From NCBI RefSeq assembly GCF_000423165.1, contig NZ_AUHL01000006.1:1-64000 (forward strand): a stretch of 64,000 nucleotides of DNA, read 5' to 3'. Below, piece after piece: positions 32,905 through 42,626 of this stretch; the stretch's first letter is position 1, and every line of letters begins with the position of its first letter. The notes beneath the pieces are model-generated. The model saw only the letters and a program-made list of their open reading frames with translations. It was not told the DNA's origin and made no database searches. The position numbers and the translations under genes are program-made. This DNA comes from Pseudidiomarina sediminum DSM 21906. Its GTDB lineage: Bacteria; Pseudomonadota; Gammaproteobacteria; Enterobacterales; Alteromonadaceae.

Positions 32905-33570
32905 CCGCGCTTGCGTGACTAACCAGCGAAATAAGCGCAGCTGACTGGGTACGTAAAATAAGTATTCAGGATGCCATTGCACGCCAACAATGGGGTGTTT
33001 GCCCGTGCTTTCAATGGCCTGTGGCAGCAAATCTAAATCGTGCGCAACAATTTTGAGTCCTTGTCCAACCTCATGAACAGCCTGATGATGCAAGCTATTG
33101 ACGCGGAGTTTAGGCTTTTTGACGATACCACCAAGTTGTGAACGTTCATCGACATAAACCTGCTTGGTTGGCAGCAAGCCAGGGCGGTTGTAAGTATGGT
33201 GACGGAGGTCGCGGATATCGTCGTAGAGGTTCCCTTTGTGTACCACGTTAAGGAGTTGCGCCCCACGACAAATTCCGAGTATGGGTAAGCCGTCACGTAA
33301 GGCTTTGGCGATCCAACGCATTTCTAAGTCATCACGCTCATGATCGTGCTTTACCTTGCCGCTTAAGGTGCCGCCATAATGCTCGGGTGAAATATCGCTG
33401 CCGCCACCAATGATAATGCCGTGCAGCGGAAGCCCTGACGGCCTGTGATGCACACTAATACGTTCTACTTCAGCACCACATAAGGTCAGTGCCAAACGGG
33501 TTGACCACCAGCTTGGTGACCACTTCTTTCCAGCGCCGGTAACGCCTATGCGAGGTTTTCGTTGCGCCAT
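32887..33570 (-). CDS. Class I glutamine amidotransferase / gamma-glutamyl hydrolase-like (peptidase C26)
   Basis: A 227-residue protein of the class I amidotransferase fold. The nucleophile is the Cys in GICRGAQLLNV, and the His-Glu pair is in VGVQWHPEYLF. IIIGGGSDISPEHYGG is typical of the C26 gamma-glutamyl hydrolase group. The start at 33570 leaves GGAG eleven bases upstream. It overlaps the end of the amidoligase gene by 25 bases, so the two are coupled. The pair probably forms and breaks a gamma-glutamyl or related amide bond; the substrate is unknown. Confidence 0.88.
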   Translation of the reverse strand: MAQRKPRIGVTGAGKKWSPSWWSTRLALTLCGAEVERISVHHRPSGLPLHGIIIGGGSDISPEHYGGTLSGKVKHDHERDDLEMRWIAKALRDGLPILGICRGAQLLNVVHKGNLYDDIRDLRHHTYNRPGLLPTKQVYVDERSQLGGIVKKPKLRVNSLHHQAVHEVGQGLKIVAHDLDLLPQAIESTGKHPIVGVQWHPEYLFYVPSQLRLFRWLVTQARLFMRR

Positions 33571-34517
33571 AGGTCTACGTGCTCCACCCAAGCCGGTCGA
33601 GAGACGCCAAGGACAGGCCGGTCTGCGGCTCGGAAGTCATTAGCGAGTTCCGCCAGCGCCTTGGGTCGGTTGGCAAGTCGCTCGAGGGTGCAGTAATGTT
33701 GCCATTCTTGGGCCAAGGACCAGTTGGGGTCGTCAATTTGGCAATTGGGAAGACGATAGTGCAAGGTCGGCCGAGGATTGATTTTTTCATCGCCCATTTC
33801 TGCCCGAACACGCTTTTCGTCTAAATAAGCAAACAGCGGCAGTAAATCTAAGGCGCGATTGCGACTGTGATTGGCGTGCAAATAGTCGTCGATGAGCTGT
33901 TCTTGCGACGGGGTGTTGTAAGTGAGCACCTTATGCAGGTAACTCTCGGAATAAAGATCAATATAGGGGCTTAGTTTACGTGTGGTATTGATATGATGCT
34001 GTTCGACCAGCCACCATTGCAGTAGGGCGAAGGCTTTGAGATAGCGCACTATGGTCGCACTATCGAGCGCTGGCAATTCTGGATTAATGTGGGTGCCGTA
34101 TGCAGCAATGGGCGACTCTTCAGTTCCTTTCGCGCCGGCGCGACGCAGTGCGTTGGTGAGGTCATTTAACGGCGCTAGGTTGTTCATCGCCAGCGGTGGG
34201 CAAATCACTTCAACAGGGACAACCAAACTGGCAGCTTGGCTGAGCGATTCCAACAAGTGGTCAGCGCGCTTACTTTGCGGGTTATTGCCCGCAAGTTTGT
34301 GTAAAAAACGCCAGTCGAGCTCAATCTTGAAGGTGCCTAATGGACTGTCCACGCGCCAACTGGCGGGACTTTTGGCGTAGGGAGAACCACCAACAGCAGC
34401 CGCAGTCGCCTCGGCGCTGCTAGCGACATCAAGCCCAGAAAATTCGAGCTCGAAGCCAGCCCGGCGCACCTCGCCTTCTGCATTGATCAGTGCCGGCGGA
34501 AGTAAAAAAGCTGTCAT
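33546..34517 (-). CDS. Amidoligase family protein
   Basis: A 323-residue protein of the predicted amidoligase family (carboxylate-amine ligases related to the glutamine synthetase/GshA fold). The N terminus has the family's GFELEFSGLD strand with paired acidic residues, later FKIELDWRF, VPVEVICPPL and the AYGTHINPE histidine motif. Members form an amide bond using ATP and typically sit beside a class I amidotransferase, as here. The start is uncertain (ATG 34517 or GTG 34523/34526), with no clear ribosome-binding site. The substrate, a peptide or small molecule, is unknown. Confidence 0.85.
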   Translation of the reverse strand: MTAFLLPPALINAEGEVRRAGFELEFSGLDVASSAEATAAAVGGSPYAKSPASWRVDSPLGTFKIELDWRFLHKLAGNNPQSKRADHLLESLSQAASLVVPVEVICPPLAMNNLAPLNDLTNALRRAGAKGTEESPIAAYGTHINPELPALDSATIVRYLKAFALLQWWLVEQHHINTTRKLSPYIDLYSESYLHKVLTYNTPSQEQLIDDYLHANHSRNRALDLLPLFAYLDEKRVRAEMGDEKINPRPTLHYRLPNCQIDDPNWSLAQEWQHYCTLERLANRPKALAELANDFRAADRPVLGVSRPAWVEHVDLWRNENLA

Positions 34518-34588
34518 AACCACCACATGTTGTTTGGTTAACCTGCATATTTAACGTTCAGTGTAGCAGAACAAATTGCGGAATAATC

Positions 34589-35219: not shown

Positions 35220-36110
35220 ATGATGCTCGCCACATTAGTGCAAACCACTCGTCCGGCGTTTCTGTTGCTGGCTTTATCAGTGACCGCATTGGCTGTTGCG
35301 CTGGCGTTCTCTGCTGGCGCCTCGATGACGTGGTGGTTGGTGGCTTTAGTCGCGCTCGGTGCAGTGATTGCGCATGCGTGCGTGAATGTGCTTAATGAAG
35401 TAGACGATGCGCGTTCAGGTTTAGATGCACTGACGGAACGTACGCCTTTTAGTGGCGGCAGTGGGGCCTTACAAGCACAACCTAGAGCGCTAAACGCTGC
35501 GGCAGCATTAGGATTAGGTTTGCTGGCGCTTGTGATCGCCATTGGCCTCTATTTTATCTATTTACGCGGCTGGGGACTCTTCCCTCTAGGTTTGCTGGGG
35601 GTTGTGTTAGTGGTTGCTTACACACCTATGCTGACCCGACTTCCTTGGTTATGCTTGATCGCACCTGGTCTTGGATTCGGACCATTAATGGTGTTGGGAA
35701 GTTATTATGTGTTGACTGGGAGCTACAGTGGTGTGGCATTCGCGACCTCGTTTATCCCTTTCTTTTTGGTGAATAACTTGCTCTTGTTAAACCAATTTCC
35801 CGATGCCAAAGCCGACGTGCAAGTGGGGCGTAGACATTTGATCATTGCCACCAGCCCTGCGGTAGCACTGCGGGTGTTTCAAGCATTTTTAGTGGCGCCT
35901 TATGTCCTGTTGGTTGCTTTGGTCGGTGTTGGTGTCTTGCCGCTTTGGGCACTGCTTGGTTTGGTGAGTTTAGTCGTTGCCATCCCGCTCTATCGCGGTG
36001 TTAGCACACTCCAAAGCCCATCGAACATACCGCACGCCTTGCTCGGTCAAAACGTGGTCGTCAACCTCAGCATGCCAGCATTGATTGCCGTTGGTTTGTT
36101 ATTGGCGTAA
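35220..36110 (+). CDS. UbiA-family prenyltransferase (MenA-like)
   Basis: A 296-residue integral membrane protein with eight to nine helices. The first aspartate-rich motif is NVLNEVDDARSGLD (near residue 60) and the second NQFPDAKADVQVGRR (near 195), which bind the prenyl diphosphate through Mg2+. The form is closer to MenA-type than to UbiA. No menaquinone or other quinone genes are nearby, so the acceptor is unknown. The start (ATG 35220 or 35223) directly follows the T tract of a terminator and has no Shine-Dalgarno sequence. Confidence 0.87.
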   Translation: MMLATLVQTTRPAFLLLALSVTALAVALAFSAGASMTWWLVALVALGAVIAHACVNVLNEVDDARSGLDALTERTPFSGGSGALQAQPRALNAAAALGLGLLALVIAIGLYFIYLRGWGLFPLGLLGVVLVVAYTPMLTRLPWLCLIAPGLGFGPLMVLGSYYVLTGSYSGVAFATSFIPFFLVNNLLLLNQFPDAKADVQVGRRHLIIATSPAVALRVFQAFLVAPYVLLVALVGVGVLPLWALLGLVSLVVAIPLYRGVSTLQSPSNIPHALLGQNVVVNLSMPALIAVGLLLA

Positions 36111-36148
36111 CGCGCCCTCACACCGCCATGCAGTATGAGGGTGGAGCT

Positions 36149-37552
36149 TTAAAGAGAGTGCAAGTAAATGGGGCTTGAAACGAGTAACGGCTCAGCAGCT
36201 TCGCTGTAGAGCTCGACACGTAGCCATGCGCTATCGATACCTGCTGGCAATTGATGTGGGATGTCGGTATACGGGATCTCGTAGGTGGCGTTGCTGGTAA
36301 TCACTTTCCAGTAACTGCCTTCGATATCTGTTGCCAACATTAGGGTGAGCGGCTGTTGTGGGTGATATTCGAGTACTCCCCCCATGGCGACCTGTTGTTC
36401 GCCCTGCGTTGCGTTAAAGTTCAAGTAACTTGCACCTTGATTTTGCAGATCGATGAACGCGCGACCATCGCGAATGCCACGATAAAGCGCTTCTGCAGAG
36501 AGGTTATCGGCCTCAATCACAGTAATGGCTTCCCATTTTTGGAATAACTCATGCGGATTGTGGTTATCGCTGCCTGCAGTCGCACTCAGCCGATACCCTT
36601 GATCAAGTAATTGATGCCAGAGTGTGGTTGCAAGCCCTTTCCCGCCGGCTTTTGCCAGCGTAGAGCTATTAGCGACTTCAATGGCTTGGACGGCATTGTA
36701 GTTCGCATCAGCTTGCCAACCGCAGCCCATACATTGTTCACCCGAGGGTAAGTTTGGATGATTAATGATGGTAATCGCTTGGTTATTGATCTGCTTTTGA
36801 ATGGCGGTAAAGTCATTGTCGGTCATCCGAAAGTCAATAAACCCTGACTCACCCAAGACATTCGCGTGACCATAAAATGTGGTGATTTCTCGGCCTGGGA
36901 GCATGAGCAAATTATCGTAGAAGGGTTGCAGGCGCGCGACATCAGCAAAGCCAGCACGCGAATTGTGCTCGGTAAAGGCGATAAAGTCGAGCTGCAGACG
37001 TTCGGCTCGACTGAGCCCTTGCTCCGTCGGACAGGCAACTTTCTGCGCGCGTTTGGATTGACACCAACCATCACTTTGCCCGCTGTGAGCATGGAGATCG
37101 CCACGGTACCAACCACGCTTATCAGCGATGACCTGTTGTGTATCGGGAATCGTTGAGTGGAGTGTAATGGTGGCGTGATAGCTACTTTCGCTGGTACTAC
37201 GAATATTAGGAACACCAAGAATAAGCTTCCACTCACCGGCGATAATAGGGCCAGCAAGATAAGAAGGCGTTGCAGCAAGTTCGGAAAGACTGAATTGCTT
37301 TTTACTGCCGCCGCTCCAGCCACGAAATCGCTGTGGGTCTTCTAAGCCGAGATCAATAACGGTGCGATGACTGTTGTCGTAGTCAAAGCTGACTTCGATA
37401 TGTTGTGTCCCAGCAGGCACGTCAAAGGGTACTGCAACATAGGATTGGTGTTGAGCGCCGCTAATTTTACCTTTCAGTTCAATGTGTTGTGGCTCTGCAA
37501 CGGCTTGGGTACTTGCCAGTAGTAGTGCTGACAAAAAAGTCGATGTGTACAT
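36149..37552 (-). CDS. Secreted PHP-domain metallohydrolase (CehA/McbA-like)
   Basis: A 467-residue exported protein (signal peptide, cleavage near AVAE at residue 19). A beta-sandwich N-terminal domain (about 20-140) is followed by a PHP domain with metal ligands GDLHAHSG (151-158), FTEHNSRAG, INHPNLP and TAGSDNHNPHE. Members hydrolyse phosphate or carboxylic esters with two or three metal ions. A hairpin separates it from the upstream TonB-dependent receptor, and a Pho-box-like site precedes the receptor. I infer an organophosphate substrate brought in by that receptor. Confidence 0.87.
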   Translation of the reverse strand: MYTSTFLSALLLASTQAVAEPQHIELKGKISGAQHQSYVAVPFDVPAGTQHIEVSFDYDNSHRTVIDLGLEDPQRFRGWSGGSKKQFSLSELAATPSYLAGPIIAGEWKLILGVPNIRSTSESSYHATITLHSTIPDTQQVIADKRGWYRGDLHAHSGQSDGWCQSKRAQKVACPTEQGLSRAERLQLDFIAFTEHNSRAGFADVARLQPFYDNLLMLPGREITTFYGHANVLGESGFIDFRMTDNDFTAIQKQINNQAITIINHPNLPSGEQCMGCGWQADANYNAVQAIEVANSSTLAKAGGKGLATTLWHQLLDQGYRLSATAGSDNHNPHELFQKWEAITVIEADNLSAEALYRGIRDGRAFIDLQNQGASYLNFNATQGEQQVAMGGVLEYHPQQPLTLMLATDIEGSYWKVITSNATYEIPYTDIPHQLPAGIDSAWLRVELYSEAAEPLLVSSPIYLHSL

Positions 37553-37561
37553 GGTGGAATA

Positions 37562-37581
37562 CCCCCAAGTTACCTTGGGGG
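37562..37581. other. Hairpin between receptor and hydrolase genes
   Basis: CCCCCAAG / CTTGGGGG with a TTAC loop gives an 8-bp GC-rich stem in the 37-base gap. No T run follows on the minus strand, so it is probably not a full terminator. It may lower or stabilise transcription of the hydrolase gene relative to the receptor gene. Confidence 0.7.
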
Positions 37582-37589
37582 CCCGTCAG

Positions 37590-40073
37590 TTAGAATTGAT
37601 AGCGTAAAGAGGCTCGAATGGTTCGGCCAAGAATGGGGCGCGCCAAGAAGTAACCGTCAGCTTGTTGACCTTCACCAATGAACTGGCCTGCACGAGGGTT
37701 GCCCTCGGTGAGCCCGATTTCGTTGGTCAAGTTTTGTGCGTTCAATTGGAAGGTTAAATTAGGCGTCAGGTAGTACATCACACTCGCATTGAGCGATTGA
37801 TATTCTGGTAACACCACCTGATTCGCGACGTCGCCATAGCGATCTCCATAGTGTTCGACCACTAACTCCGTCCGTAAATCGCCATCGAGTAAGTTAAACC
37901 CTGCGGTAATCCGCGCTGAGTCTTCTGGTACACGAATGAGCTGGTTACCACCGAAGTCAATCGCTTCGCCCGCGCTGTTGGTAAACGAGAAGGTTTTATA
38001 CTCAGGCGACTGTAGTGTCGCGGTAGCTCCTAAATCGAACCAATCGGTAAGGGTCCAGAGCGCTTCTAGTTCAATACCAAAGGTTTCGGTATCACCATAG
38101 GCCGTTTGCTGCGTGTACGTATTGGTGTCATTGTCAAAGGCGTAGTCGGTGAAGCGCATGTTGTCGAAATAGGTGTAAAACGCTGTGGCATAGACATTCA
38201 AATTATCTTGAACGTATTTCAAGCCGACTTCAGCCATACTGATCGGCTCAACACGCAAGTCATCTCGCTCAGGATTGCCGTTGAAGTCAGACGCATTCGG
38301 GGTGCGGAAGCTGTCGGTATAGCGGCCAAAGAAGCCAAACTTTTTATTGATTTGATAGTTAGCGCCAATGGTCCAAGCGAGTTCATTGTAGCTCTCATCG
38401 ATAGGCGTAAAAATGCCATTGCCCGTAATGAATTGGTCATCCGCAAGACTTGCGGATTGCTCTAAATCAATGACCGTTGTTCCTTCGACTTGGCCACCTA
38501 ACTCAATCCACTCGTAACGTGCACCAAGGTCGATACGCAGTTGATCATTGATTTGCCACTCATCGGCGACATAAGCCGCTAAGGTTTGTCCTTCACCATC
38601 GACACGATTATAGAGCGAGCCATAACGAAGAATGCCGTTTTCTGAAATCGCAAGAATGTCTTCACCGTTGTGGGTCACGACGGCATCAAGCAACCGTGGC
38701 TGATCACGTACTTCAAACATCGCGGTGGCCATATAGCGATTGAATTCGTAGTCGTAGTCGGCGTAATACACACCAAAACTCACGTCATGGCTCTGTTCGC
38801 CAAAATTAAACTGACGACTTATGCGTAGGTCGTTAATAATTTCATCAAGGGGTACGTCGACAGAGAGTAAATTCCCATTCAGTACCATACCGTTGCCGGC
38901 ATTATTGTTGGGGTCGAAGGTGAGCCCTGGATGGTTGGCAAAGCGTAACTCGACATTCGCATCACCTGGAATCATGCCGGCAAGGGCATTTTCATAGCTT
39001 GCGATGCGATCGTTTGCGGACTCAAGTCCTCCGGTTGGGAACAGACCATTGCGCAAGGTGTCACTCAAGCGGTAGCGGAAGCTATTCTTGATGGTCCACT
39101 CAGAAACGTTAAAGTCTGCTGACATCGAATATTGGTGCAAGGTGGTGTGCGTACCATCGCCCAGGTCAAAGTCATAGCCATTGCCACTAGGGTCCCGGTA
39201 ACGGTTATGTTCAACTTCAGGACTCATAAATGAGCCGTAATTTGCATCAAAGCCCGGCATGCTTGTGATGTCACCATTGCTATCTTGAGCTAGCGGAACG
39301 GGTAAAAGGAATGCCGTTCTGTCATTTAAATAACGGTAATCAAAAAGCAATTCGCCACTGTCGAAACGCTTCCCTAGAGTAAAGCGGATCTGCCCGCCTT
39401 TATTGGCATCGAAGCCCGGATCCCGAACGCCATCGTTGGTGCGATAAAAGCCACCGACGGAAACGAACATATCCTCACCGATCGGGGTGCCATAGTAGCC
39501 ATCAATGCGGCCGTGACTGTAGTCGCCCAGCTCTGTTTTGAAAACGATGCGCTCGCCATCGTAGGCCTTACGCGTAATAAAGTTGACCACGCCGCCAGGC
39601 GCATTCGAGGCGAAGACAGACGATGGTCCACCGCGAACGACCTCTACGCGCTCAATGGTCTCATCTAAGCGGAACGATTGATCGGAGTTGAGGTAACCCA
39701 AGCCACCATCATGCTGAATGGCGAGTCCATTCTCTTGCAGTGAAATCGAGGAGTAACCGTCACGTGGGATACCACGTACCCGAATATTATTCGAAGCTTC
39801 GCCACCTGATGACTCCACCCAAAATCCGGGAACTGACTTCATCACATCGGCGACGCTCATTGGTGCATCCATCATCAGATCTTGTTCACTGATGGTGGAG
39901 ACCGCGTAGCTCGCTTCTGATTTACGTAAGGTTTTACTGCCTGCACGAGCCGTCACAACGATGGTTTCAACGTCGTTGTCTTGCGCTGTGCTGGTTGATG
40001 AGGATTCAGCAAATGCTGCAGGCGTGCTTAAAGCCAAGGCGATGGCGCAGAAAACTTTACTTTTTGAATACAT
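37590..40073 (-). CDS. TonB-dependent outer-membrane receptor
   Basis: An 827-residue outer-membrane receptor. A signal peptide (cleavage near AFAES) is followed by a TonB box-like VETIVVTAR, a plug domain (about 40-170, including IRVRGIPRDGYSS and GPSSVFASNAPGGVVNFITRK), and a long beta-barrel ending in the expected aromatic residue (RYQF). It takes up a large or scarce substrate with energy from TonB. The next gene is a secreted PHP hydrolase and the promoter carries a Pho-box-like site; no Fur box is evident. The substrate is therefore inferred to be a phosphorus compound rather than iron. Confidence 0.93.
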   Translation of the reverse strand: MYSKSKVFCAIALALSTPAAFAESSSTSTAQDNDVETIVVTARAGSKTLRKSEASYAVSTISEQDLMMDAPMSVADVMKSVPGFWVESSGGEASNNIRVRGIPRDGYSSISLQENGLAIQHDGGLGYLNSDQSFRLDETIERVEVVRGGPSSVFASNAPGGVVNFITRKAYDGERIVFKTELGDYSHGRIDGYYGTPIGEDMFVSVGGFYRTNDGVRDPGFDANKGGQIRFTLGKRFDSGELLFDYRYLNDRTAFLLPVPLAQDSNGDITSMPGFDANYGSFMSPEVEHNRYRDPSGNGYDFDLGDGTHTTLHQYSMSADFNVSEWTIKNSFRYRLSDTLRNGLFPTGGLESANDRIASYENALAGMIPGDANVELRFANHPGLTFDPNNNAGNGMVLNGNLLSVDVPLDEIINDLRISRQFNFGEQSHDVSFGVYYADYDYEFNRYMATAMFEVRDQPRLLDAVVTHNGEDILAISENGILRYGSLYNRVDGEGQTLAAYVADEWQINDQLRIDLGARYEWIELGGQVEGTTVIDLEQSASLADDQFITGNGIFTPIDESYNELAWTIGANYQINKKFGFFGRYTDSFRTPNASDFNGNPERDDLRVEPISMAEVGLKYVQDNLNVYATAFYTYFDNMRFTDYAFDNDTNTYTQQTAYGDTETFGIELEALWTLTDWFDLGATATLQSPEYKTFSFTNSAGEAIDFGGNQLIRVPEDSARITAGFNLLDGDLRTELVVEHYGDRYGDVANQVVLPEYQSLNASVMYYLTPNLTFQLNAQNLTNEIGLTEGNPRAGQFIGEGQQADGYFLARPILGRTIRASLRYQF

Positions 40074-40118
40074 ATGTAGTGGGTCCTGATTACTGCATTA
40101 GGAATGGAAGCCCACTAA

Positions 40119-40150
40119 TCTATAGTTACCCTATGACTGTGTTATGACAG
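40119..40150 (-). promoter_or_regulatory. Pho-box-like promoter of the TonB-dependent receptor gene
   Basis: Read on the minus strand, 40150-40133 is CTGTCATAACACAGTCAT, matching 14 of 18 positions of the PhoB consensus (two 7-base direct repeats with a 4-base spacer). Eight bases on, TATAGA (40124-40119) can act as a -10, close to the spacing seen in Pho promoters that lack a -35 element. The predicted leader to the ATG at 40073 is about 38 nt, with AGGA before it. No gene lies between 40074 and 40334. Confidence 0.6.
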
Positions 40151-40334
40151 CTGTATTGCATATTTATTTCTTATTTGTGAATAAATGATGGTTGGTTGAC
40201 GGTCTTTGTGGATCTTTTTTCTTGGGGGGCAGTTAAGCCCGTCAAACTCATTGCGATGCACAATTCTGATACGCAAAATAGCTACAATTAACTACTATAA
40301 TTTACAGTTGGTTTTAGCAAGCTAGTATCAATTG

Positions 40335-40580
40335 CTAACCAAGCCAATAAGGCCTACTAAAAATAAGCACGAAAAGTATCAGCAGTGGATGAGCAAAGAC
40401 TTTTGGCCCGTCGTATTTCTTTTTATCTTGCTGAAACTCAGAAAATCGCTTAGAGCCATATAATAAATTTATAGGTATGAGAGATGCTGCTCCGATAAAT
40501 GCGAACTCTATTTGATCTGTAAAGCCAAGTATAACAAACAAGCCACATACAACAATTATACTTAAAGTTATTAACTTCAT
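40335..40580 (-). CDS. Small unknown membrane protein (81 aa)
   Basis: An 81-residue protein with two N-terminal hydrophobic stretches (about 3-20 and 25-41) and one near the C terminus (about 65-78). A charged middle (SKRFSEFQQDKKKYDG) separates them. AGGA lies seven bases before the ATG. I do not recognise it. It lies in an AT-rich patch unlike the flanking genome and shares it with another small membrane protein, so an accessory function such as immunity is conceivable but unproven. Confidence 0.55.
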   Translation of the reverse strand: MKLITLSIIVVCGLFVILGFTDQIEFAFIGAASLIPINLLYGSKRFSEFQQDKKKYDGPKVFAHPLLILFVLIFSRPYWLG

Positions 40581-40642
40581 CGATTTATCCTAATTAATGC
40601 AGCCTGCAAAATCACAGGCGACTAAGTCCTAAATATTAGGTT

Positions 40643-40811
40643 TTATTGTGCACCTTGAGCAGCGCCGCCAATAGCACCTATTGCAGACCTGCTTGTATAT
40701 GATTGGCAAATTACATTTGACAGGGTAGCACCCTTGATACTGCGACTAATTGCGAGATATCTAAAGGTGTTTTATATTTAATAAATTCAGCTATTAAATA
40801 TAAAAATACTA
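40643..40811 (-). pseudogene. Possible decayed double-glycine-leader peptide gene
   Basis: Two reading frames meet here. Frame A (about 40811-40735) reads as LIAEFIKYKTPLDISQLVAVS, which resembles the end of a double-glycine leader. Shifted by one base, frame B (40738-40643) reads IKGATLSNVICQS and ends GAIGGAAQGAQ before a stop, like the Gly/Ala-rich tail of class II bacteriocins. A single-base deletion at about 40732-40735 (CAAGGG) would join them as VSGG-A. No ATG, GTG or TTG starts frame A. If this reading is right the gene is dead. It could be chance. Confidence 0.3.
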
Positions 40812-41072
40812 ATTAATCCCACTGTTATAAAAAATAAAATAAGAAGATATACTAATTAGTATAGCAAGGCCTAACCAAGCAATAACCCTTAACCCTTCCA
40901 GTTTAATAACTTCACTTACGTAGCCAAATGCAAATGGACTCAAAATAAACAATATAATGAAGTTTGTTGTGTTAAAAGCAGTCCCATCTCCATAAATTAG
41001 AGATATAAGAAATTGTATAAATAAGAATGAATAGCAAAACGAGAGAACTGAAGCTCCGAATACAGTTTTCAT
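40809..41072 (-). CDS. Small unknown membrane protein (87 aa)
   Basis: An 87-residue, very hydrophobic protein with three predicted helices (about 5-25, 33-52 and 62-82). GGA-containing sequence eleven bases upstream is a weak ribosome-binding site. It has no recognisable family. It is one of two small membrane proteins in the AT-rich patch at 40.1-41.4 kb and lies directly upstream of the possible decayed peptide gene on the same strand. Confidence 0.5.
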   Translation of the reverse strand: MKTVFGASVLSFCYSFLFIQFLISLIYGDGTAFNTTNFIILFILSPFAFGYVSEVIKLEGLRVIAWLGLAILISISSYFIFYNSGIN

Positions 41073-41084
41073 AAAAATATTCCG

Positions 41085-41122
41085 TTATAAAAATAAAGGA
41101 TGTATACCTCCGAGTATACATC
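41085..41122 (-). terminator. Hairpin with T-rich tail after the 30-residue ORF
   Basis: A perfect 9-bp inverted repeat GATGTATAC / GTATACATC (41099-41122) with a six-base loop. On the minus strand it is followed by CCTTTATTTTTA, which resembles a weak intrinsic terminator. It lies 22 bases past the stop of the small ORF at 41144. Confidence 0.5.
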
Positions 41123-41143
41123 ATAGTTATACAATACTAATTA

Positions 41144-41236
41144 TTACCCTTGATTATCACGTTTATTATCATGTACGGCTCGATCTTTATCAACGGTATA
41201 GCCACCAGCGATTAAATTTGTAACGATTCTACTCAT
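41144..41236 (-). CDS. Possible 30-residue peptide
   Basis: A short ORF beginning MSRIVTNLIAGGYTVD with a hydrophilic, charged C terminus. It is bounded upstream by a stop eleven codons before the ATG and downstream by a hairpin with a T-rich tail. The ribosome-binding site is poor. It contains a Gly-Gly pair at residues 11-12. Nothing proves that it is translated; it is listed because it is the only structured small ORF in the otherwise empty 41.1-41.4 kb stretch. Confidence 0.25.
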   Translation of the reverse strand: MSRIVTNLIAGGYTVDKDRAVHDNKRDNQG

Positions 41237-41435
41237 TGGGGAACTTATCTTGGAATGACTGATATTCTATGCGCCAATCACGTTGTGTTGACGGTCAGAT
41301 CTTAGCTATTGAAACAAGACGAGAACGTTGCGCTTCCTCTTTTCTTGGCTAGCTGAGGAAGAGGGATATATAAATATCATTGGGTACACACTTTGTTGCT
41401 CTTGATGAAATTAGTGTACAAATTTTATCGTCAAC

Positions 41436-42626
41436 TTATCTGAATAAAGAACTTGCGCAGGCGTGCGCGCTGGCCCATGCCCATTGGAAGTTGTAGCCGC
41501 CAAGCCAACCGGTGACATCAACGACTTCACCGATAAAGTAGAGGCCGGGCTGGTGTTTGCTGGCCATGGTTTTTGAGCTGAGTTGGTCGGTATCGACGCC
41601 ACCCAAAGTGACCTCTGCGGTGCGATAACCTTCAGTGCCGTTGGGTTTTACCGGCCAAGCATGCAAGGTATCAGCAACTTGGGTGAGCAAAGCGTTGCTG
41701 CAGTCGGCGAGATTTTTGTCCGGCCATTGTTGTTGCTCGGCAAAGGTGAGCGCGAAGCGTTTCGGGAACCATTGCTGAAGAACACTGCGCAAGCCGAGTT
41801 TCGGCCGTGATTGTTTCAGTTGCTGCAGTTCGGTATGAGCGTCGTGGCCCGGCAAGAGATCAATCTGTACGGTTTCACCTGGCTGCCAATAAGAAGAGAT
41901 CTGCAAGATTGCTGGACCACTTAAACCACGGTGGGTAAACAGCATGGCTTCTTTGAAGCTGGTTGCGTCAGTGCTGGCCGTGACATCAAGCGCGAGGCCG
42001 GAGAGCTCGCTGTAGGCTTGTTTTTCAGCGTCGTGAAGGGTGAAAGGCACAAGGCCTGCGCGCACCGGTAGAATACGGTGGCCAAACTGTTCCGCTAACT
42101 GATACCCAAATGGCGTGGCACCGAGTTTAGGCATCGATAGGCCACCACAGGCGACCACTAATTGCGGCGCCTGGAACACGCCCTGTGATGTTACGCACTG
42201 GTAGCGTTCGTCTTGCCAGCTGACTTGCTCGATGTCGGTACGTAGTTGTACTTTGGCGCCATGTTGATCACATTCATCCAGTAGCATGCGCACAATGGCT
42301 TTGGCAGAGTCATCACAGAATAGTTGGCCCAGCGTCTTTTCGTGATAGGCAATGCCGTGTTTCTCGACCAGTGCAATGAAGTCCCACTGGGTATAGCGGC
42401 TCAGTGCTGACTTACAAAAGTGTGGGTTTTGCGAGAGGTAATTTTCAGGGCTGGCGTACATATTGGTGAAGTTACAGCGTCCGCCGCCGGAGATCAGGAT
42501 CTTCTTGCCCGCTTGTTTGGCATGGTCGAGCACCACGACCTTAAGGCCTCGTGCAGCCGCTTGCCATGCACAGTGCAAGCCAGCAGCGCCGGCACCAATA
42601 ATGATTACGTCGAAGTGTTGTTTCAT
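41436..42626 (-). CDS. yhiN: YhiN family flavoprotein (HI0933-like)
   Basis: A 396-residue FAD-binding protein. The Rossmann start VIIGAGAAGLHCAWQAAARG, the KKILISGGGRCNFTN block with conserved Cys, a middle FTHRGLSGPAILQISSYW segment, and the closing GLYFIGEVVDVTGWLGGYNFQWAWASAHACA are the signatures of HI0933/YhiN. The physiological substrate is unknown. The start overlaps the rsmJ stop by four bases, as part of a run of linked minus-strand genes from dam down. Confidence 0.93.
   Translation of the reverse strand: MKQHFDVIIIGAGAAGLHCAWQAAARGLKVVVLDHAKQAGKKILISGGGRCNFTNMYASPENYLSQNPHFCKSALSRYTQWDFIALVEKHGIAYHEKTLGQLFCDDSAKAIVRMLLDECDQHGAKVQLRTDIEQVSWQDERYQCVTSQGVFQAPQLVVACGGLSMPKLGATPFGYQLAEQFGHRILPVRAGLVPFTLHDAEKQAYSELSGLALDVTASTDATSFKEAMLFTHRGLSGPAILQISSYWQPGETVQIDLLPGHDAHTELQQLKQSRPKLGLRSVLQQWFPKRFALTFAEQQQWPDKNLADCSNALLTQVADTLHAWPVKPNGTEGYRTAEVTLGGVDTDQLSSKTMASKHQPGLYFIGEVVDVTGWLGGYNFQWAWASAHACASSLFR

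Follow-up and report, generated by a model that had tools for sequence, protein, structure and literature searches.

The locus described here lies in a 64-kb window, which is the whole stretch of DNA that was analysed. It comprises two genes on the same strand, the receptor gene first, separated by 37 bp, and an upstream region with a Pho box (Table 1). No terminator-like site was found on the strand of the pair in a scan of positions 36000–40400.

Table 1. Coordinates of the genes and promoter elements of the locus.
Feature	Position	Strand	Remarks
TonB-dependent receptor, 827 aa	37590..40073	(-)	ATG at 40073
Exported CehA/McbA-type PHP metallohydrolase, 467 aa	36149..37552	(-)	Downstream of receptor
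Pho box CTGTCATAACACAGTCAT	40133..40150	(-)	59 bp before receptor start codon
Overlapping partial Pho repeat ATGCAATACAGCTGTCAT	40144..40161	(-)	11/14 fixed positions
-10 candidates TATAGA (40124-40119) and TAGATT (40122-40117)	40117..40124	(-)	Read directly

The first gene encodes a protein with a plug domain at residues 51–162 (PF07715, 60.6 bits) and a barrel at residues 274–782 (PF00593, 120 bits), which confirms the TonB-dependent receptor that the first-pass annotation had placed downstream of the Pho box. A signal peptide and a TonB-box-like segment (DVETIVVTA) were recognised by eye, and Pfam reported no STN domain. It is highly improbable that the protein is a siderophore or haem receptor, with the hydrolase as an accessory enzyme for its ligand: it is generally similar to both kinds, but reaches only 129.7 bits against the TonB-siderophor model TIGR01783 (cut-off 223.5) and 128 bits against a haem-receptor model (cut-off 317), and the best Fur-like match upstream of its gene is no better than those of shuffled sequences (p 0.92). 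A siderophore receptor is accordingly disfavoured both by the curated cut-offs and by the Fur scan, and the earlier remark that no iron-linked Fur box is visible holds.

The second gene product belongs to the CehA/McbA family according to NF038032 (196.2 bits, cut-off 80), and Pfam assigned no family to it. It presents a signal peptide (by eye), an N-terminal beta-sandwich (about residues 20–134), a PHP domain (about 146–358) and a C-terminal beta region. The structural model was built on an alignment of 17 sequences and had a pLDDT of 78 and a pTM of 0.71, with residues 268–279 below 50; in structure comparisons of this model, residues 20–134 resembled GOLD or protease P-domains. The closest folds were those of PHP proteins: 3e38 came first (Z 18.7, 204 residues, 3.4 A; Foldseek TM-score 0.36 of the query length), followed by 2anu (Z 17.7), PsfC 7rty (Z 15.0) and 2yb1, a Chromobacterium enzyme in complex with Mn, AMP and phosphate (Z 11.1). 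The labels of 3e38 and 2anu as phosphoesterases are by prediction only, and a sequence search of solved structures gave no match for the protein.

The positions H154, H156, D161, H196, E222, H265, D329 and H331, which we take to be the metal ligands, are kept in all 62 core members, a set that includes the window protein and from which three loci of 25–30% identity (L178–L180) were removed; with these three retained (n = 65), each ligand position is present in 64 or 65. Cysteines 164, 174, 274 and 277 are likewise conserved in 62 of 62. Fold and ligand positions agree with the earlier statement that the next gene encodes an exported PHP metallohydrolase with intact ligands. The segment GEQCMGCGW (residues 271–279, with a CxxC motif) is invariant in the 17 aligned members and represents a signature of this PHP subfamily; it may form a disulfide or bind a metal, in a part of the model that is of low confidence. 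A search for carriage of the PHP gene by phages found no match. PHP proteins of the CehA/McbA type have become known chiefly through the breakdown of pesticide carbamates. For the present enzyme, phosphoester chemistry is predicted with reasonable confidence.

The Pho box and the Pho regulon of the genome

The PhoB consensus, CTGTCATAWAWCTGTCAY, has a 7-bp motif as a direct repeat with a period of 11 bp, CTGTCAT-N4-CTGTCAY. From 40150 to 40133 on the minus strand, the Pho box reads CTGTCAT-AACA-CAGTCAT, which matches the consensus at 16 of 18 positions and at 13 of the 14 fixed ones; the 18-base site had been recognised before, on the basis of 14 matches, a count that is corrected here. It is the single best site of the window on both strands. 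In 100 dinucleotide shuffles of the 64 kb, an equally good site appeared in 5% of the shuffled windows when 18 positions were counted and in 2% when the 14 fixed ones were; for the 350 bases upstream of the receptor, one of 2000 shuffles equalled the box (p 0.0005). As for the overlapping partial repeat, about nine sites as good are expected per window by chance.

The -10 candidates lie 8 bases (TATAGA) and 10 bases (TAGATT) from the Pho box, and are equally close to TATAAT, with four of six matches each; the former is the hexamer that had been described eight bases past the box. A sigma-70 scan reported no promoter on the minus strand, which is expected where a site lacks a -35 hexamer. A promoter of the PhoB type is well supported for the receptor/PHP pair by these sequence features.

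The genome of 2.62 Mb holds three sites with at most one mismatch to CTGTCATN4CTGTCAT: the Pho box of the receptor; one located 56 bp before ppk1, which encodes polyphosphate kinase 1 (NCBIfam); and one within a gene. About one such site is expected per genome by chance, according to a hand calculation. With up to two mismatches there are 18 sites, eight of them inside ORFs called on the surrounding stretches; the other ten include a box 54 bp before the start of pstS and a weaker one at an alkaline phosphatase gene (PF00245). At up to three mismatches, the pattern read backwards is rarer in the genome (60 and 65 matches vs 95 and 95). In profile searches, PhoB scored 364.9 bits (cut-off 296.2) and PstS 279 bits (cut-off 206.6), and phoB, the gene of a kinase with PhoR domain and pstS lie side by side. 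The proposal of a PhoB-type promoter is supported by this genome, which encodes PhoB, PhoR and PstS and in which ppk1 and pstS are preceded by boxes of like form. PhoB control of the pair is predicted with high confidence.

Two further observations may bear on this regulon. At the alkaline phosphatase gene (contig C2; L044, 2979–4410), the Pho-like site TCGTCATGCTCCTGTCAT lies 8 bp ahead of the called start codon, which may be too early. In addition, a gene for an Oar-type outer-membrane receptor of 1081 aa adjoins phoB-phoR-pstS (C4:164000–180000; L036, 400–5060) and is divergent from that of a lipoprotein of the endonuclease/exonuclease/phosphatase family; their common promoter region contains the inverted repeat TGTCATAAATGTGACA (3750–3765 of L036). 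These receptor and lipoprotein genes are possibly a second phosphate-scavenging unit.

Recurrence, conservation and origin of the pair

A pattern scan of genome contigs revealed 16 hydrolase loci (37–43% identity). An orthologous receptor (42–54%) precedes the hydrolase on the same strand in 11 of them, from Sphingopyxis, Caulobacter and relatives, Sphingosinicella, Hephaestia, Massilia and a gammaproteobacterial MAG; in the other five, four labelled acidobacterial and one Bacterium HR10, the upstream gene is of the Oar outer-membrane type and forms one cluster (Pfam check on L021). With plasmid and whole-genome loci added, the set grew to 68 loci and 36 pairs, which correspond to 64 distinct loci and 32 distinct pairs after removal of L139, L146, L147 and L150, repeats of L019, L012, L014 and L013, respectively.

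Among the 64 distinct loci, the orthologous receptor lies directly upstream of the PHP gene in 32; another TonB- or Oar-type receptor is upstream in eight (L021, L023–L026, L100, L175 and L184; typed by Pfam or annotation for L021, L100 and L184, and by clustering for the rest); one locus, L176, has the receptor, then a PI-PLC gene, then the PHP gene; and the remaining 23 lack a receptor immediately before the PHP gene (among them L165, at a contig end, and L179, for which gene calling gave no PHP gene). The distances among receptors and among PHP proteins correlate across 33 pairs with r 0.91, a value that species phylogeny alone could give. The recurrence in half of the distinct loci is in line with the previous description of receptor and hydrolase as a two-gene unit. 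Eight loci of one alphaproteobacterial genus (L148, L157, L162, L168, L170, L171, L173 and L174) have kept the PHP gene and miss the receptor; there, the PHP gene lies beside genes of clusters 6 and 7 (DUF35-like and thiolase-like by eye), which also flank the complete pair in L142, L153 and L154.

The Pho box itself does not follow this distribution. With start codons estimated from the alignment and dinucleotide shuffles as reference, four of the 32 distinct relatives with an orthologous receptor have a Pho-like match (p<0.05) ahead of the receptor, where 1.6 are expected, and the other 28 have none. The four are L011 (p 0.02), L018 (0.005, one of 200 shuffles), L153 (none of 200) and L154 (0.01); of these, the matches in L018 and L153 could be genuine. 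L153 and L154 have a common upstream element that covers part of the Pho-like match and is absent from four further loci of the same genus in that alignment. With mononucleotide shuffles, p was between 0.04 and 0.84 for the five loci in which the upstream gene is of the Oar type. The first-pass annotation had named conservation of the site upstream of orthologous pairs as a check on its proposal, and the site is not generally kept among the relatives compared, all of which are distant; close relatives are unusable for this comparison, because no orthologue was found in them.

Many of the Caulobacter-type loci carry ECF-sigma-like and FecR-like genes (by eye) before the receptor; with repeats counted, the former (cluster 4) occur in 20 and the latter (cluster 3) in 22 of the 68 loci. 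Given these genes and the 28 of 32 relatives with no match, Pho control would be local to the copy in the window and perhaps a few others. Judged by these upstream sequences, receptor/PHP pairs do not in general carry a Pho box, which counts against a conserved phosphate role of the pair.

The limited conservation also bears on whether the box might be a chance match, the pair being expressed constitutively or under some other control. This would be in keeping with the 2–5% of shuffled 64-kb windows that hold an equally good match, and with a genome-wide count of three close sites, one inside a gene, where about one is expected. The site, however, has the correct orientation, stands at a short distance before the ATG, is followed by -10 candidates and is rarely equalled in shuffles of the upstream region, and the other best site of the genome outside a gene precedes ppk1. 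Chance is on balance quite an improbable explanation for the box.

The family to which the window belongs was sampled with 195 further genomes, six congeners included, none of which yielded an orthologous hydrolase; ten of these genomes hold distant partial matches only (24–41% identity, E 8e-8 to 4e-4), and the six congeners have none. The own genome included, matches to the hydrolase occur in 5 of 369 genomes of the class at E<=0.001 and in 7 of 398 genomes of the phylum at E<=1e-15. The closest relative of the receptor within the family has 37% identity. The nearest receptors of the family (L185–L189, 27–37% identity) are paired receptors accompanied by sigma-like and FecR-like genes (by eye), and their loci also hold a GH20 hexosaminidase (Pfam for L187).

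In the nearest congener, two signalling-type genes (by eye) replace the pair between the homologues of 33546–34526 and 41436–42626; in the other five congeners, the right-hand flank alone was found within the stretch examined. Upstream of the receptor, positions 40074–41430 form an AT-rich segment of 1.36 kb (GC 0.35 vs 0.51) with no ORF of 100 aa, which may be an insertion remnant, and the pair has the GC content of its surroundings (0.50). Since no orthologous hydrolase was found in the 195 genomes of the family, horizontal acquisition of the pair is probable and is the simplest reading of these comparisons.

Candidate substrates

The genes that surround the hydrolase in some relatives include several for inositol and phospholipid metabolism. 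In Sphingomonas parapaucimobilis, GH92, iolG, iolC, iolD and iolE come after the hydrolase and a receptor from another subfamily. In Hephaestia (L020), genes for a Ca-dependent phosphoinositide phospholipase C (PF16670) and GH92 lie next after the pair, and the phospholipase between receptor and hydrolase in L176, which comes from the class of the window, is also PF16670. PI-PLC-C1 lies 3.3 kb from the hydrolase in L151 and 6.2 kb from it in L139, where a calcineurin-type phosphoesterase is in the neighbourhood too; within the sequence stretches examined, it occurs around 4 of the 64 distinct PHP loci. In L021 (and L025, by clustering), genes of the alpha-glycerophosphate-oxidase and MIP (aquaporin family) types follow, with GH92 upstream, and a GH38 alpha-mannosidase is present in L023 (with L024 and L026, by clustering). 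In many relatives, the neighbours have nothing to do with phosphorus; examples are GH28, GH30/GH35 and adenosine deaminase.

The association was also seen at the level of genomes. In one alphaproteobacterial family that includes Caulobacter strains, the hydrolase is present in 88 of 299 genomes (E<=1e-50) and the phospholipase PI-PLC-C1 in 164 (E<=1e-20); the latter occurs in 80 of the 88 genomes with the PHP gene vs 84 of the 211 without it (Fisher p 1e-17, kinship ignored). Among 30 PI-PLC loci of that family, with flanks of about 1.5 kb, none carried the PHP gene or the pair, and four had a distant receptor match only (24–26%). PI-PLC-C1 was not found in the own genome. By association, the neighbours tentatively point to inositol- or glycerol-phosphate head groups as the substrate.

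Some of the same surroundings would suit the scavenging of carbon or glycans. The receptor would then import a glycoconjugate or a natural ester or carbamate, of which the PHP enzyme would cleave a non-phosphate ester, and the Pho box would be explained by a chance phosphate group on the substrate or by an accident of insertion. CehA and McbA, the namesakes of the family, are carbamate esterases in the available text of PMC8292978; GH92 or GH38 is found near 7 of the 64 PHP loci; and the sigma- and FecR-like genes hint at induction by the substrate in relatives. Since GH20 or GH97 glycosidases adjoin more distant members of the receptor family, the ligand may be a glycan. On the other hand, the Pho box is of top rank in the genome, which has further boxes at ppk1 and pstS; PI-PLC, glycerophosphate-oxidase-type and inositol genes lie beside some relatives; and the best fold matches carry phosphoesterase labels, some by prediction only. 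We regard carbon or glycan scavenging as unlikely to be the role of the copy in the window.

Proposed function and relation to known systems

We propose that the locus is an acquired, PhoB-driven two-gene operon for the import and cleavage of organic phosphorus, with a probability of roughly 0.6. When phosphate is scarce, phosphorylated PhoB would bind the box, and receptor and hydrolase would be produced from what is presumably one transcript. The receptor would carry a phosphorus-containing molecule too big for porins over the outer membrane; the exported PHP enzyme, most likely periplasmic, would cut its phosphoester bond or bonds; and the Pst system would take up the freed phosphate. Phospholipid head groups or their products, such as glycerophosphoinositol, inositol 1,2-cyclic phosphate, inositol 1-phosphate and mannosylated forms, would be the most likely substrates, a kind suggested solely by the neighbours of relatives. 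A phosphate-starvation-induced two-gene system for organophosphorus compounds had been put forward in the first-pass annotation. It is partly supported: the Pho promoter, the PhoB, PhoR and PstS genes, the recurrent pair and the intact PHP ligand positions, all read from sequence, speak for it, and a general conservation of the site was not seen among the distant orthologous pairs.

A rather doubtful extension of this reading takes the pair with the GEQCMGCGW signature as a widespread, unrecognised capture system for inositol-containing phospholipid head groups, i.e. the PI-PLC products of phosphatidylinositol and of GPI- and inositol-phosphoceramide-type lipids. In the periplasm, the PHP enzyme would act as a phosphodiesterase, by ring opening of inositol cyclic phosphate or by cleavage of glycerophosphoinositol. 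The system would serve carbon supply under sigma/FecR-type control in many lineages, and the acquired copy would have been rewired here to PhoB for phosphorus supply.

The earlier statement that no system of this make-up has been described is too strong, because related arrangements are reported in PMC8115612, PMC11208175 and PMC8292978, as far as the available text of these sources goes. The phosphate utilisation systems (PUS, PusCD) of Flavobacterium are Pho-induced clusters of a TonB transporter and a phosphoesterase, with phosphodiesterase or phosphomonoesterase genes and induction at low phosphate (PMC8115612, available text). They share with the pair a TonB-type outer-membrane transporter clustered with a phosphoesterase gene, but have the SusC/SusD pair of Bacteroidetes, whereas the locus here combines a single receptor with a PHP enzyme, and its Pho box is of the classical kind. 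The receptor has no SusD-like neighbour at the locus: the PHP gene follows, and the 1.36 kb before the receptor gene hold no ORF of 100 aa.

The PhoB regulon of Caulobacter crescentus includes TonB-dependent receptors, a phosphodiesterase, a phytase and a phospholipase C (PMC11208175, in part), whereas most Caulobacter-family pairs in our set have no Pho-like match; one Caulobacter TonB-dependent receptor is not phosphate-regulated according to the accessible part of PMC2996285. A TonB-dependent receptor has been noted upstream of cehA in strain CDS-1 (PMC8292978). CehA and McbA give their names to NF038032, the family of the window protein, but act on carbamates; cehA lies on a transposon in strain AC100, and the portion of that source at hand mentions no phosphate control. 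The vreAIR/PUMA3 system of Pseudomonas aeruginosa has a receptor-like gene and a pho box bound by PhoB, but is, in the available part of PMC4971064, a signalling system with sigma and anti-sigma factors whose receptor has no barrel.

Two PHP enzymes can be likened to the window protein by description, from the available text of PMC5460133. Sb-PDE of Sphingobium sp. TCM1 is a secreted PHP enzyme with about two zinc that prefers phosphodiesters and is inhibited by reducing agents; its size (413 aa mature plus a signal of 28 aa) is similar, and it is known for haloalkyl phosphate diesters. Elen0235, cited there and of the same PHP superfamily, converts a cyclic phosphodiester to a vicinal diol and phosphate, as would be required for inositol 1,2-cyclic phosphate. 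For neither enzyme does that text mention a receptor partner.

No description of a PhoB-controlled receptor/PHP pair was recognised among the top-ranked literature matches. A Pho-controlled TonB transporter with a phosphoesterase is a known theme, and the putative PhoB-wired receptor/PHP operon would be a new form of it. Also new is the narrower range of likely substrates, inositol- or glycerol-phosphate head groups, to which the neighbours of relatives point. The recurrent receptor, the four-cysteine PHP subfamily and the phosphoinositide, inositol and glycerol-phosphate neighbours together offer a testable class of natural substrates for the enzyme. The PhoB-wired copy, with no other copy found in its lineage, would be a clean case in which to study the placing of an acquired uptake unit under a new regulator, and this kit, apparently PhoB-switched, probably serves the organism to scavenge phosphorus from organic molecules, for example lipid head groups.
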